64,000 nucleotides of DNA, from NCBI RefSeq assembly GCF_012720115.1, contig NZ_VNWN01000002.1, positions 310,001 through 374,000 on the forward strand, in the 5' to 3' direction. Source of the DNA: Sneathiella chinensis. GTDB taxonomy: Bacteria > Pseudomonadota > Alphaproteobacteria > Sneathiellales > Sneathiellaceae. Of the stretch, positions 20,172-31,116 are shown one piece after another; the first letter of the stretch is position 1; every line of letters begins with the position of its first letter. A program made the translations under genes and the position numbers. Under the pieces are notes generated by a model, which worked only from the letters and a program-made list of their open reading frames with translations, searched no databases and was not told where the DNA came from.

Positions 20172-20864
20172 TTAAGGGGTGGGGACAATCCGGCCATCGA
20201 CCAGATGGATATTGCGGTCGGCATGGGCGGCAAGGGCCGGGTCGTGGGTGACCATGATAACACTGGTATTACCGGCATCCACCAGACTTCGCAGAATATC
20301 CTGAACAACCTCGCTGTTCTTGGTGTCCAGATTGCCGGTGGGCTCGTCTGCCAGAATGACTTCCGGCTCGTTGGCAAGGGCGCGGGCGACGGCGACGCGC
20401 TGGCGCTGTCCGCCAGACAGTTGCGACGGATATTTGTCCAGATGATCGGCAAGCCCGATGCTGCCAAGCAGGCTTTCCGCCCTCTCTGTTCGTTGACGGA
20501 GGGAGAGGACCCCCAGCTTGTGCATGGGAACCATGACATTTTCCCGGACCGTGAATTCGGCCAGCAGAAAATGGAACTGGAAGACAAATCCCAGTTTTCG
20601 AAGTCTGAGGTCGCACAGGGCCACATCGGACAAGGGGCCGGTGGGCTGTCCGTTGACCAGAACCTCCCCCTTGGTGGGGCGGTCCAGCAGGCCGAGAAGA
20701 TACAGCAGGGAGGATTTCCCGGAACCGGACGGACCGGTGACCGAGACGAACTCTCCCGCCTGGACGGTCAGGGAGATGTCTTTGACAAGGGTGACCGGCA
20801 CCTCAAGGGGAAGAATGCGGGTGACCTCCCGTGTTTCAATTAGCGGCGGGCGAGAGGCGGTCAT
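20172..20864 (-). CDS. ABC exporter ATPase (LolD/MacB type)
   Basis: A 230-residue ATPase with Walker A GPSGSGKS, signature LSGGQRQR and Walker [13 protein letters not shown], the last being characteristic of the LolD/MacB/FtsE group that drives mechanotransmission rather than direct transport. I start it at the ATG at 20864, which overlaps the permease stop codon as ATGA; an upstream extension would lie entirely within the permease gene. With the FtsX-like permease and the HlyD-like adaptor it makes a three-gene tripartite exporter, read adaptor, permease, ATPase. Confidence 0.93.
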
Positions 20865-22123
20865 CCGGCCCCTCCGCGAATGATATCGACAGGTTTGAGG
20901 GCGGCTGCGCGGCGGGCGGGCATCCATGCGGCGAAGGCCGCGGCCAGCAGGCAGGCCGCGCCGCCGGTCAGGTAATGGATCGGGTCATACACGATGAACA
21001 GATACTGGGTGGCGATGATGGCTTCCATGTCGATGCGGATGGCGCCCAGCCCGCGGGACATGGCATAGCCAAGCCCCCAGCCAAGTATCATGCCCACAAG
21101 GCCGATGATCATGCCCTGTATCAGGAAAACCCGCTGGATATCAGCCGGGGTGAAGCCCATGGATTTCAGAATGGCGATATCGCGGACCTTTTCATTGATC
21201 AGGGTCGAGATAATATTGAAGATGCCGAAACAGGCGACCAGAAGAATGGCACTGCTGGTGGCGTAGCGGACAATATCCTGCACGATAAAGACCGAGATGA
21301 TCCCCTCGTTCGCCTCCTGCCAGGAAACGGTCTTGTAGCCAAAGCGGTTTTCCAGTTGCCGGGCGATCTCGACGGCATTGTCGGGGATGTCCAGCGAGAA
21401 GCGGATGGCGTTGATCACATTCGGCCGGTTTTGCAGGATCTGGGCGTCTTTCAGCAGGGCATAGGAAACGGTCTTGTCCAGATCGACGATGCCGGTGTGG
21501 AAAATGCCCACGACCTTCAGGACCTTGACGGTGCCAGAGACAGAAATGGCCGTCACCCGGTCGCCAAGATCGGCGTTCAGTTCGTCCGCCAGTTCGCTGC
21601 CCAGAATGACACTTCCCGAATAGGCCTGCAGGTCGTCCAGCGTGCCCTTCACCATATCCCGCGCCAGTTTTGTGACCTGCTTTTCCCGTTCGGGATCAAT
21701 GCCGACAAGGGTTGCCGCCAGATCCTTGAGGCCATACCGGAAGACAACCTGCCCCTCCAGTGTGGGGGCTGTCTTCAGTCCCGGCATCCGCGAGGTGGTC
21801 CGCACGATCCTGTCGGCGTTCTTGATGCCGCGGATTTCCTCTTTCGGTTTGATGCTGGACAGGGAAATGGCCCCCTCTGCCCGGTTATACAGATGGTCCA
21901 GTGGCTGGACCGGGCGGGCGCGATATTCGTCCTTCATCTCGATATGGGGGGAAACATCAATGATTTTCTGGATGAAGTAGCCTTGAAACCCTTCCATCAT
22001 GGCGGTCATGGCAATGTAAAACGCGACCCCGAGCGCCACCCCCAGCGTGGCAGTGATCGTGGGTTTCAGGCGGCCTGTCAGATGGGTGAGCGCGATATTC
22101 AGGGACAGGTTGCCGGTTCGCAT
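20861..22123 (-). CDS. FtsX/MacB-type ABC exporter permease
   Basis: A 420-residue membrane protein with an N-terminal segment (TATLGVALGVAFYIAMTAMM), a large periplasmic domain (about 45-285) and three C-terminal membrane segments. The C-terminal region contains ILKSMGFTPADIQRVFLIQG, the coupling-helix signature of FtsX-like permeases. The periplasmic part has the MacB-type sequence SVILGSELADELNADLGDRV. Start and stop codons overlap those of its neighbours (1 base with the adaptor, 4 with the ATPase), which indicates strict co-translation. The exported substrate cannot be told from sequence; lipid, peptide or siderophore export are known for relatives. Confidence 0.92.
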   Translation of the reverse strand: MRTGNLSLNIALTHLTGRLKPTITATLGVALGVAFYIAMTAMMEGFQGYFIQKIIDVSPHIEMKDEYRARPVQPLDHLYNRAEGAISLSSIKPKEEIRGIKNADRIVRTTSRMPGLKTAPTLEGQVVFRYGLKDLAATLVGIDPEREKQVTKLARDMVKGTLDDLQAYSGSVILGSELADELNADLGDRVTAISVSGTVKVLKVVGIFHTGIVDLDKTVSYALLKDAQILQNRPNVINAIRFSLDIPDNAVEIARQLENRFGYKTVSWQEANEGIISVFIVQDIVRYATSSAILLVACFGIFNIISTLINEKVRDIAILKSMGFTPADIQRVFLIQGMIIGLVGMILGWGLGYAMSRGLGAIRIDMEAIIATQYLFIVYDPIHYLTGGAACLLAAAFAAWMPARRAAALKPVDIIRGGAG

Positions 22124-23145
22124 TATCGCTGCCTCCGGATTTCCTGACCGTCTTCAAGGGCACCAAACGGCGGCAGCAGAACCGGGTCGCCCTCTGACAG
22201 GCCGCTGCTGATTTCCACAAATTGTTCACCCCGGATACCGGTGGTGACCGGGGCTTTTCGGGCCCGCGTCTTTTCATCCTGCTGTCCGACCGTCCAGACG
22301 GCCCCGCCTTCCAGCAACGCGTCGACCGGGATCAACAGGGCCTGTCCGTTTTCGCGGACGATGGTGTTGGTTTCCACTGTCATGCCGATCATGAGCGGGA
22401 TGGTGTCTGGCAAGGACACATACATGCGGTAGCTTTTGGTTAGCGGGTCGCCCTTGGGACTGATCCAGCGAACGGACCCTTTCATGACCTTGCCGGGGAA
22501 GGCATCGGCAGTGATCAGGACCGTCTGGCCGGGAGTGATCTTCGGGATATCCTCTTCGTCCACCTCGGCCTCAAGGCGGAGGGAGCCGGGCAGGCCCACC
22601 CAGAACAGGGCGGTGCCGGCCTGTTTTACTTCGCCCAGTTCCACATCCCGCCACAGGACGGTGCCATCCATGGGCGCGGTCAGGGCAAGCTGGCGGATTT
22701 TTTCCCGGTACAGGCTGACGCGGGCCTTGGCGCGGGCCAGATCGGTTTCGCGGATGTCGTGCTGCTCCTCTGATTCAAAGCCTTTCTTCAGCAGGGTTTC
22801 CAGCCGCTGCAGGGTTTTTTCGTAAAACTCCACCAAGGCCTCAGCCTCGGCCAGTTGGGCCCGCAGGTCCGCATCATCAATACGGGCAAGAACCTGCCCC
22901 TTGCGGACGGTCTCGCCTTCCTGAACGTTGATTTCCACAATACGTCCGGTGGTGATGGGGGCAATCTTGGCCCATTCCACCGGCTCGACAACAGCGGTGG
23001 CATAAACAGCCTCGACGGCGGGGCCAAGATGGGCCGGGGCCGTTCGATAGGCCGGGGGCAGGGCATTCCACCACAGCAGACCGCCGCCCGTTGCCAGCGC
23101 CGCCACGATCAGAAGGGATGTCAAAAAGGTTTTCTTGCCTGCCAC
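22123..23145 (-). CDS. HlyD/MacA-type periplasmic adaptor
   Basis: A 340-residue membrane-fusion protein: one N-terminal membrane anchor (FLTSLLIVAALATGGGLLWW), a lipoyl/barrel-sandwich half (GRIVEINVQEGETVRKGQVL), a short helical hairpin (about 100-165), the second lipoyl half ending TAPMDGTVLWRDVELGEVKQ, and a beta-barrel domain. The start codon is GTG. It is the first gene of the exporter operon and links the inner-membrane pump to an outer-membrane channel not encoded here. Confidence 0.92.
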   Translation of the reverse strand: MAGKKTFLTSLLIVAALATGGGLLWWNALPPAYRTAPAHLGPAVEAVYATAVVEPVEWAKIAPITTGRIVEINVQEGETVRKGQVLARIDDADLRAQLAEAEALVEFYEKTLQRLETLLKKGFESEEQHDIRETDLARAKARVSLYREKIRQLALTAPMDGTVLWRDVELGEVKQAGTALFWVGLPGSLRLEAEVDEEDIPKITPGQTVLITADAFPGKVMKGSVRWISPKGDPLTKSYRMYVSLPDTIPLMIGMTVETNTIVRENGQALLIPVDALLEGGAVWTVGQQDEKTRARKAPVTTGIRGEQFVEISSGLSEGDPVLLPPFGALEDGQEIRRQR

Positions 23146-23243: not shown

Positions 23244-24146
23244 TCAGCGGGGTCCTGTTTTCTCGTTGATCAGGGCGTCTGCCAGCAGCGGGGCAAGGGG
23301 CAGGGCGTTGCTGGGGGCGGGAACACTGTCGGTGGAGCGAAGGCGGGCGATGCCGTCCTTTTGCAATTTGTCCCGAACCGCACTGTCTCCCAGATCGTGA
23401 ACGACGATCACCTCCACCTTTCTGGCACCCGCCTTCAGGACGGCATTGGCGCACCGGGAAAGGGTTCCGCCACTGGACAGGATATCATCGATCAGGATGG
23501 CGTGGACGTTGTGCAGTGGCGGTGTTTCGGGCAGGGAAACGGCCACATCCCGATCATTGAACCGTTGCTTGGTGGCAACCGTAAAGGGAAGGCCCGCCCG
23601 GTCGGCGATGGCCCGGACCCATTGTTCGGATTCGCTGTCCGGTCCGACCAGTATTCGCGGCCCGGATGCCGGTTCCGCTGCCAGCAGGTCGGCGATCAGC
23701 GGCGCGGCGCCAAGGGCGTCGGTCTCGCAGTCAGGAAAGATTTCCCGCAGCGAATGGATGCGGTGCAGGTGGGGGTCGACCGTGACAATGCGGTCAAAAA
23801 AGCCGGACAGAATGCCCGCCATCAGGCGCTGGCTAACGGCGTCACCAGCCTCGAAGGCGGTATCCTGCCGCATATAGCAGAGATAGGGCGCGACCAGCAC
23901 AATCCGGTCCGCGCCATTTTCCTTCAGGGCCCCGGCGGCGAACAGGGTCTGGATCAGCTTTTCGTTGGGACGATCCAGTGACACGAACAACAGCGCCGTG
24001 CCTGTGACCGGGTGGATCCGCACCCGGCTTTCCCCGTCCGGGAAGGTATGGATATGGATGGGATGGCAGGGCACGTCCAGATGCGCAGCCAGTTGCCGGG
24101 CGGGGGCCTCGCTTGCAGGGTGGAAATGCAGGCTGACCGGGGTCAC
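23244..24146 (-). CDS. Ribose-phosphate pyrophosphokinase (PRPP synthetase) homologue
   Basis: A 300-residue protein with both phosphoribosyl folds. Recognisable sites are [10 protein letters not shown] (35-44), [12 protein letters not shown] (87-98), the catalytic-loop histidine region DPHLHR (124-129), the KQR loop (193-195) and the PRPP loop [11 protein letters not shown] (220-230). It is shorter than housekeeping Prs (about 315 residues), and several loops differ (for instance YMRQDT for YARQDR), which resembles the divergent archaeal-like class. Its start overlaps the stop of the AMP-phosphorylase-like gene by 4 bases. I infer a dedicated partner of that enzyme rather than the cell's main PRPP synthetase. 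Confidence 0.85.
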
Positions 24147-25639
24147 GGGTGACCCCCGATGGTATAGCCGGACGCCTCGGTGGCAAAGTCGGCGGCAAAA
24201 TGATGGTCGGACTGGAAGCAGGCATGAATCCGGTACAGCGGATCGCCCTTGCGGACTGTGTCGCCCACTTTTTTGAATAACCGGATACCGGCACCCGTAT
24301 CCATGGGGGCCCCGGCATAGCGGGCAATCCGGGCAAGGCGGAAACAGTCAATGGCGGAAATCACCCCGTTGGCGGGCGCTGTAATTTCCGAGGTCAGGGG
24401 CCCAAGCTCCTGTTGGCTGGTATTCCGGCCCTGCGCATCAATGATTTTGTTCATGGTTTCAAGGGCGGCGCCACTGTCCAGAAGGTGCCGGGCGCGGGCA
24501 TATCCGGTGCCGCCGTGAAGGGCCGGGTCATTTTCCAGAATGGTGCCGGCCATGCGCAGGGATTTTTCCCGAAGGTCCGCCGGGGCACCGGACGCACCTT
24601 CCAGAACGGCCATGACGTCCAGTGCCTCCAGAACCGGGCCGATGCCGTTGCCGATCGGCTGGGTGCCATCGGTGACGGTGACACTGACATCCAGTCCGAT
24701 TTTTCCGCCCACATATTCAAACAGTTTGCGAAGCCGCATGGCATCGGTGGGGGTGCGAATTTTGGCCGATGATCCGATGGGAATATCGATCAGCAGATGG
24801 GTGGACCCTGCCGCCGCTTTCTTTGACATGATCGAGGCAACCATCTGTTCGCGGGTGTCGATCATCAGCGGGCGTTCCACGGATATCAGGATGTCATCCG
24901 CCGGGGACAGGTTCACATGCCCGCCCCAGACAATGCAGCCGTTGCAATCCTCGACCACCTTCTGCATCTGCCGGGTGGACAGGTCCACCTTGGCCAGAAC
25001 CTCCATGGTGTCGGCGGTTCCGGCGGGGGATGTGATGGCCCGGGACGAGGTCTTGGGGATGGTCAGGCCGTGAGCGGCCACAATCGGCACCACAATCATG
25101 GAGGTCCGGTTTCCCGGAATGCCGCCAATACAGTGCTTGTCAACGACGATCGGGGCCTTCCAGGACAGACGGTTCCCGACCTTGGCCATGGCCTGTGTCA
25201 GGGACAGCATTTCGTCCGTGGTCATGAAGCCGGCGCAGGACACCAGAAAGGCGGCGATTTCCATTTCCGAATATCGGAAGGCGGCAATATCGCTGATCAC
25301 CTGCTCGATCTGGCCGGGATCAAGGGTATGGCCGTGGATCTTGCTGCGGACATGGTCAAGGCTTTGCGGCGGGACGGCCGGACGGATGGAGACAGATGCC
25401 CCCGCTGCCAGCCCCAGACGGTGAAAGGCCTGTTCCGACAGGCCCAGTTCATTGGGGCCGACGATGGCCGGATCATCAACGATCAGCAATTTGGCCTGCA
25501 GGCAGTTACAGCCGTTGTTCAGTACCTCCACCTTCTTGAAGGCCTGATATTCCTCGGGTCTGTAGAGATCGCAGTTTCGGGCCAGAAAGGCCACATTGTC
25601 CCGATAGGTATCGATCTCGATTTTCTTGAGCGTCAGCAT
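24143..25639 (-). CDS. AMP phosphorylase / thymidine phosphorylase-family protein
   Basis: A 498-residue protein of the long, archaeal-type branch of the thymidine phosphorylase family. It has an extra N-terminal domain (about 1-90), the glycosyltransferase helical domain and a C-terminal domain. The phosphate-binding motif reads [16 protein letters not shown] (166-181). This is the AMP-phosphorylase version, not the STGG-GDK form of thymidine phosphorylase. Archaeal relatives convert AMP and phosphate to adenine and ribose-1,5-bisphosphate. The ATG at 25639 has AGGAG 7 bases upstream. It overlaps the PRPP-synthetase-like gene by 4 bases. Bacterial examples are sporadic, so lateral acquisition is possible. 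Confidence 0.88.
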
Positions 25640-25735
25640 GAGCTTTCTCCTCACCAGCGGGGAGGCGAGACGGAAACCTCATGGTAAACGACAGTCATGC
25701 CGTTTGGCAAATGGCCTTTTTGGGAAGGGCGGGGG

Positions 25736-26707: not shown

Positions 26708-27916
<1,209 letters not shown>

Positions 27917-27992
27917 GACAGTTCTTCCTGTCTCCGCCCCCCTCGGTATTGTGGGGGCGGGTCTGATGAGCAGGGCCGTAAAGAGGAATGAG

Positions 27993-28829
27993 ATGACCAT
28001 CGAGCATTTGAGTTCAAATAAAAGTTTCGGGGGCTGGCACAAGCGTTACAGCCACCCGTCGGAAGTGCTGAATTGCAATATGCAGTTCGCCATTTATCTG
28101 CCGCCGCAGGCATCCGAGGGACAGGCCGTCCCGGTTGTCTACTGGCTGTCCGGGCTGACCTGTACGGATGAAAATTTCATGCAAAAGGCAGGCGCCCACC
28201 GGATTGCTGCGGAACTCGGGATTGCCATCGTGGCGCCGGATACCAGCCCTCGCGGCGATCAGGTTGCCAATGATGACGGCTATGATCTGGGGCAGGGGGC
28301 GGGCTTCTATGTCAATGCCACCGAAGCACCGTGGAATCGCCATTACAGAATGTATGATTATGTTCTGACGGAATTGCCCGCCCTGATAGAAAATCTGTTC
28401 CCGGTTTCAAACAAGCGATCCCTTGCCGGTCATTCCATGGGTGGGCACGGGGCGCTGGTTCTGGCGCTTCGGAACCCGGACCGATATCAGTCCGTTTCCG
28501 CCTTCAGCCCGATCAGTCGCCCGACCGATTGCCCGTGGGGGGAAAAGGCCTTTTCCGCCTATCTGGGAGACGATCGAAGCCATTGGGAGGCCTATGATGC
28601 CAGCCTGTTGATGAGCGGCGCGACTGCGTTCGTGCCGGCATTGGTGGATCAGGGCAGTGCAGATGATTTTCTGGCAGAACAATTGAAGCCGGAAGCCCTT
28701 GTCAGCGCCGCGAAGGAAAGCGGTTATCCACTGCATCTCAATATGCGGGACGGATACGACCATAGCTATTATTTCATCGCTTCTTTTATCGAGGATCACT
28801 TGCGGTTCCATGCCGCTCATCTGGTATGA
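27993..28829 (+). CDS. fghA: S-formylglutathione hydrolase
   Basis: A 278-residue esterase-D-type alpha/beta hydrolase that releases formate and glutathione from S-formylglutathione. The nucleophile Ser148 lies in [27 protein letters not shown] and APDTSPRG are the oxyanion and substrate motifs, and the catalytic histidine is in GYDHSYYF near the C-terminus. I start it at the ATG at 27993, which follows AAGAGG; a long upstream extension lacks similarity. It lies 76 bases after frmA and completes formaldehyde oxidation to formate. Confidence 0.95.
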
Positions 28830-30989: not shown

Positions 30990-31116
30990 GGCCCCGTGTT
31001 GTGCCGGATCATGGCGTCCGGCCAAACCACAGTTGACGCAGGTCAATCCGGCATTTTGCAAATCCCATAAGCTCATCATCTTATTTCTTCTTCCCTCTAA
31101 AATGGCGGAGGACCGG

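Follow-up and report, generated by a model that had tools for sequence, protein, structure and literature searches.

An NMP-phosphorylase-like gene overlapping a PRPP-synthetase-like gene in Sneathiella chinensis: candidate core of a probably undescribed bacterial route for ribose reuse from nucleotides

The window analysed here, a stretch of 64,000 nucleotides from Sneathiella chinensis, carries on its minus strand two genes that overlap by four bases, one coding for an NMP-phosphorylase-like protein (TP2) and the other for a PRPP-synthetase-like protein:

24143..25639, minus strand: TP2, NMP-phosphorylase-like gene, 498 aa (families NF003338/TIGR02645)
23244..24146, minus strand: PRPP-synthetase-like gene of the PRK07199 subfamily by profile match, 300 aa, GTG start
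24143..24146, minus strand: four-base overlap GTGA, with the stop of TP2 and the start of the synthetase-like gene
25647..25652, minus strand: GAGGAG, likely ribosome-binding site of TP2, read off the sequence
25640..25735, minus strand: gap between the LysR gene and TP2, upstream of TP2
20172..23145, minus strand: neighbouring HlyD, FtsX/LolCE-like and LolD-like ABC exporter genes, downstream of the pair

TP2 starts with the ATG at 25639 and ends at 24143, and the synthetase-like gene starts with the GTG at 24146, inside the GTGA, and ends at 23244. The initial annotation had described genes fused by this overlap: the overlap is present where it was placed, on the minus strand, but these are two overlapping genes and not one fusion. 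Exactly the same overlap is found in 19 of the 25 homologous pairs examined, which argues against a chance pairing of TP2 with the synthetase-like gene. The HlyD-FtsX-ABC exporter was considered as a core part of the module and rejected, as its support comes from a few loci only; exporters similar to those of the window also lie downstream of the pair at L048 and L074. Elsewhere in the window (26798-28829), a glutathione-dependent formaldehyde dehydrogenase gene (TIGR02818) followed by an S-formylglutathione hydrolase gene (TIGR02821) forms an ordinary formaldehyde-removal pair.

The distribution of the pair was surveyed in 397 Pseudomonadota genomes using curated profile cut-offs, with near-cut-off matches included in the neighbour counts. 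Over the curated cut-offs, TP2 occurs in 46 genomes (about 12%) and PRK07199 in 42, and, near-cut-off matches counted, PRK07199 lies directly downstream of TP2 on the same strand for 42 of the 50 TP2 genes. Co-occurrence of both families in these genomes has a p-value of about 1e-48, to be taken, as all p-values of this survey, as a guide only, since the genomes are related and not independent. The pair is thus conserved, and not rare and unconserved, the outcome that had been named beforehand as speaking against the first reading of this locus. Its nearest relatives were found in Sneathiella, Kordiimonas and other alphaproteobacteria. In several loci (L049, L050, L052, L053, L055, L066, L070) the module lies amid stress and metal-resistance genes (P-type ATPases, Hsp20, FtsH and others), and in many cases it is carried by plasmids typed as conjugative or mobilizable.

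TP2 (P0001) scores 680 bits against NF003338 (cut-off 434) and 626 bits against TIGR02645, a putative thymidine phosphorylase family (cut-off 434.6); with 481.1 bits against the AMP-phosphorylase equivalog TIGR03327, it falls under the cut-off of 535 for membership of that family. Its best solved relative by sequence is the AMP phosphorylase of T. kodakarensis (PDB 4ga5, deposited as a putative thymidine phosphorylase), and TP2 shares 44.4% identity over 417 residues with this enzyme (TK0352), and 26.3% with the DeoA of its own genome. Among TP2-invariant positions, 27 match the T. kodakarensis enzyme and not DeoA, and 2 the reverse, so that the substrate-pocket segments of TP2 are archaeal rather than DeoA-like. 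Judged from these residues, the pocket is of the archaeal AMP/NMP phosphorylase type and not of the type of the genome's own DeoA, in agreement with the archaeal AMP-phosphorylase motif that had been pointed out in the protein, which is present, and with its designation as AMP-phosphorylase-like, which the 27 positions against 2 favour. As TK0352/4ga5 has the same pocket segments, we infer that the bacterial TP2 would cleave NMPs by phosphorolysis, and ribose-1,5-bisphosphate (R15P) would be the product.

The synthetase-like protein (P0002) scores 343.4 bits against NF005537/PRK07199 (cut-off 322) and 162.9 bits against the PRPP-synthetase subfamily TIGR01251 (cut-off 113), thus falling within the PRPP-synthetase family profile, and its best solved relative by sequence is a ribose-phosphate pyrophosphokinase (1u9y); a separate canonical PrsA is present in the genome. 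The SPDxGG loop of PRPP synthetases holds the pyrophosphate of PRPP, and is replaced by GPDxES in all 30 PRK07199 members (30/30), none having the canonical DxGG. The K-x-R, H and D residues and most ribose-5-phosphate (R5P) residues are kept in PRK07199. With residue roles taken from the E. coli PRPP synthetase structure (PMC9232217), the protein of the window retains F35, D37, the Mg/alpha-phosphate His (H126 in the window protein), D170, D220, D221 and T228, and T225 of the E. coli enzyme is a Ser. R99, which contacts the beta-phosphate in E. coli (PMC9232217), corresponds to T96 in the window protein and to a variable position across PRK07199, the beta-phosphate Arg/Lys being lost in many members. 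Compared with canonical PrsA, the PRK07199 enzyme therefore shares the fold family and the adenine, Mg and most R5P residues, but has GPDxES instead of SPDxGG, DPHLHR instead of DLHAGQIQGFF, and a beta-phosphate Arg that is not kept, as befits the divergent PRPP synthetase initially recognized here. Because its pyrophosphate loop is invariantly changed, this enzyme may not simply make PRPP; it would take R5P or R15P as substrate together with an adenine nucleotide, presumably treating the C1 phosphate differently.

What could become of R15P in such a bacterium? The absence of RuBisCO and R15P isomerase, initially noted in the window, extends to the whole genome, in which no PF00016 match (RuBisCO large subunit) was found and the only e2b2-type match is MtnA. 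R15P isomerase is also over its cut-off in none of the 397 Pseudomonadota genomes (0/397), and a RuBisCO or R15P isomerase link was ruled out on these three grounds. The module thus differs from the archaeal pentose bisphosphate pathway in that TP2 is bacterial, is coupled to a PRPP-synthetase-like gene, and has neither RuBisCO nor R15P isomerase at its side. Bacteria also use R15P through the ribosyl bisphosphate phosphokinase PhnN, in the C-P lyase route; this use of R15P would be common to both systems, but the best PhnN match in the genome of the window reaches 37 bits for a cut-off of 156. R15P metabolism without RuBisCO has been described in halophilic archaea as the non-carboxylating pentose bisphosphate pathway, whose starting point is guanosine, taken through R1P kinase, and which depends on R15P isomerase (PMC9700705). 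The module resembles that pathway in dispensing with RuBisCO, and differs from it in the absence of the isomerase from the window's genome.

A third gene recurs beside the pair in relatives. On annotated plasmid loci, an MBL-fold hydrolase gene adjoins the pair in Bradyrhizobium, Acidovorax, Criblamydia, Methylophaga, Leisingera, Legionella and Sphingobium, and adjoins TP2 in Azospirillum, Niveispirillum and Pseudorhizobium. Lactamase_B, Beta-Casp and RMMBL domains are all found in P0003, P0004 and the unlinked homologue of the window's genome, the domain make-up of beta-CASP RNases, and an RNase role is predicted on this basis. In the survey, 21 of 50 cases have the RNase gene alongside on the same strand, in the order MBL-TP2-PRS or TP2-PRS-MBL, and the enrichment of this gene in genomes with TP2 (odds 10, p 3e-12, a guide only as the genomes are related) is accompanied by the absence of a match in 12 of 47 TP2 genomes. 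The closest relatives of the window show TP2-PRS-MBL (L006-L011, L014) or TP2-MBL (L012). No RNase gene lies beside the pair of the window, the homologue being located elsewhere in the genome (G000:C12:25893-27257), adjoining a LonB-like protease. Among curated models, those closest to the RNase partner (P0003, P0004, P0006, L058:7894-9261) are Cas14 (type VII CRISPR, beta-CASP) and aCPSF1, both below cut-off, and this partner may be close to the family that gave rise to type VII Cas14.

In several relatives, the module looks to be switched on at low oxygen. A perfect TTGA-N6-TCAA box of the FNR/FixK type is located 69-90 bases before TP2 in 8 of 9 near relatives, for a background of 2.4% of random 130-base stretches from the same loci, and the box ATGATCTGGGTCAA occurs at -74 in L030 and L032. 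The same ATGATCTGGGTCAA motif and -74 position are listed for bll3117-bll3116-bll3115 of Bradyrhizobium diazoefficiens (PMC9104804), a FixK2-controlled operon that combines thymidine-phosphorylase-family, ribose-phosphate pyrophosphokinase and MBL genes, and that was matched to the module by annotation, gene order and box rather than by direct sequence comparison. Deletion of fixK2 lowers bll3117 6.6-fold, bll3115 30.6-fold, and a phosphoketolase-acetate kinase operon (bll2518-bll2517) about 10-fold (PMC9104804), and microoxia raises all three products of bll3117-bll3116-bll3115 (PMC6515984). The papers reporting this FixK2 control and microoxic induction give no description of the function of the operon. 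Compared with it, the window's copy has no RNase gene in the operon and no FNR/FixK-type box in the gap before TP2 (25640..25735). The box was rejected as a universal feature, since it is present in the near relatives and in Bradyrhizobium-like, Azospirillum and Niveispirillum loci, and absent in most other survey loci. A single perfect FNR-type box, TTGACGCAGGTCAA, is found in the window, at 31033-31046, where 0.22 would be expected.

Genes for phosphoketolase and acetate kinase also appear around the module. Five survey loci have phosphoketolase at most 3 kb from TP2, and L050, L051, L066 and L074 carry acetate kinase family genes close to the module. Phosphoketolase adjoins the RNase gene in 12 of the 29 genomes having both, and 8 of these 12 genomes are without TP2, the two genes being separated by about 1.4-1.8 kb and oppositely oriented. 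In these eight (G023, G058, G062, G139, G214, G244, G318, G352), the phosphoketolase is low-scoring (divergent). At the genome level, phosphoketolase and TP2 are weakly associated (odds 2.4, p 0.029, a guide only, given related genomes). No phosphoketolase was found in the genome of the window, in which, with the RNase gene unlinked and the FNR box absent, only the genes of the two core enzymes have stayed linked.

Taken together, the pair has about an even chance (roughly 0.5) of forming the core of a bacterial module for nucleotide breakdown, a reading built on pocket residues and gene neighbourhoods, in which TP2 would make R15P from 5'-NMPs and its partner would move the pentose onward. 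In relatives, the co-operonic beta-CASP RNase, whose association is observed, could supply the 5'-NMPs from RNA. TP2 would then convert NMP and Pi into base and R15P, like its archaeal relative, and the synthetase-like enzyme would link R15P to the R5P/PRPP pool, perhaps by R15P + AMP -> R5P + ADP, a one-phosphate, reversed form of the PRPP-synthetase reaction, or else by PRPP formation. The pentose would then enter ordinary sugar metabolism, in some relatives possibly via phosphoketolase and acetate kinase at low oxygen. The analysis leans to the one-phosphate reaction for two reasons: the gamma-phosphate left aside, it has the geometry of the synthetase reaction run backwards, and the changed residues lie on the pyrophosphate side. 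The more specific proposal, that PRK07199 is a ribose-1,5-bisphosphate:AMP (or ADP) phosphotransferase by which RNA would be turned into R5P at a saving of one phosphate bond, for use by phosphoketolase and acetate kinase in bacteria short of oxygen, is speculative and on balance unlikely.

The initial annotation had suggested that the pair recycles the AMP made by PRPP synthesis or turns R15P into PRPP; it is partly supported, being right on the enzyme types and on the absence of RuBisCO, and had left out the RNase as third partner, the association with phosphoketolase and acetate kinase and, in relatives, the control by low oxygen. These features speak for a breakdown of RNA/NMP pentose and not for a closed PRPP-AMP loop. 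It is possible, if on the doubtful side, that the second enzyme is an ordinary PRPP synthetase, ATP-dependent and separately controlled, whose AMP the phosphorylase would remove and whose PRPP would serve base salvage: the TIGR01251 score (162.9 against 113 bits) and the retention of K-x-R, H, D and most R5P residues speak for it, but this reading would have to accommodate an invariantly changed pyrophosphate loop, a beta-phosphate Arg/Lys that many members have lost and the canonical PrsA already in the genome, and the RNase and phosphoketolase links fit breakdown better. Enzymes of the PRPP-synthetase fold need a free C1 hydroxyl to accept the diphosphoryl group that they transfer, and R15P has none, so that direct conversion (R15P + ATP -> PRPP + ADP) in replacement of PhnN would need new chemistry; this makes it quite improbable, even though PhnN is under its cut-off and TP2 would yield R15P.

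The same low standing applies to TP2 as a thymidine or pyrimidine nucleoside phosphorylase, with the pair serving deoxynucleoside salvage. This very unlikely reading follows the database names ("thymidine phosphorylase family protein"), but the archaeal AMP phosphorylase was itself formerly misannotated as a thymidine phosphorylase (PMC8376864), and the DeoA segments are replaced in TP2 by AMP-phosphorylase ones. Moreover, a canonical deoA, adjoining what reads as deoB, is present elsewhere in the genome, so that the genome can do without TP2 as a nucleoside phosphorylase, and it was on the pocket residues and this separate deoA-deoB that the reading was set aside.

In the nucleotide-breakdown reading, the pair is probably an undescribed route by which bases are stripped from nucleotides and the ribose is reused without RuBisCO. 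No description of the module was found in the open-licence literature, where NMP phosphorolysis to R15P is reported from archaea, mostly together with RuBisCO. If this holds, a new ribose-recovery route would be common in bacteria, without RuBisCO or R15P isomerase, with a PRPP-synthetase-like partner of its own and, in relatives, control by low oxygen; the "thymidine phosphorylase" annotation would be corrected in about 12% of the sampled Pseudomonadota genomes (46/397), and the fate of R15P in bacteria would become directly testable through the module. A divergent TP2 clade is found apart from any PRK07199 partner in four loci (L060, L061, L062 and L063, in G328, G254, G206 and G338, respectively). 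A QPRTase-family gene precedes TP2 in all four, the two tested scoring as nadC over cut-off, and the TP2 of this clade may have a pyridine nucleotide as its phosphorylase substrate.
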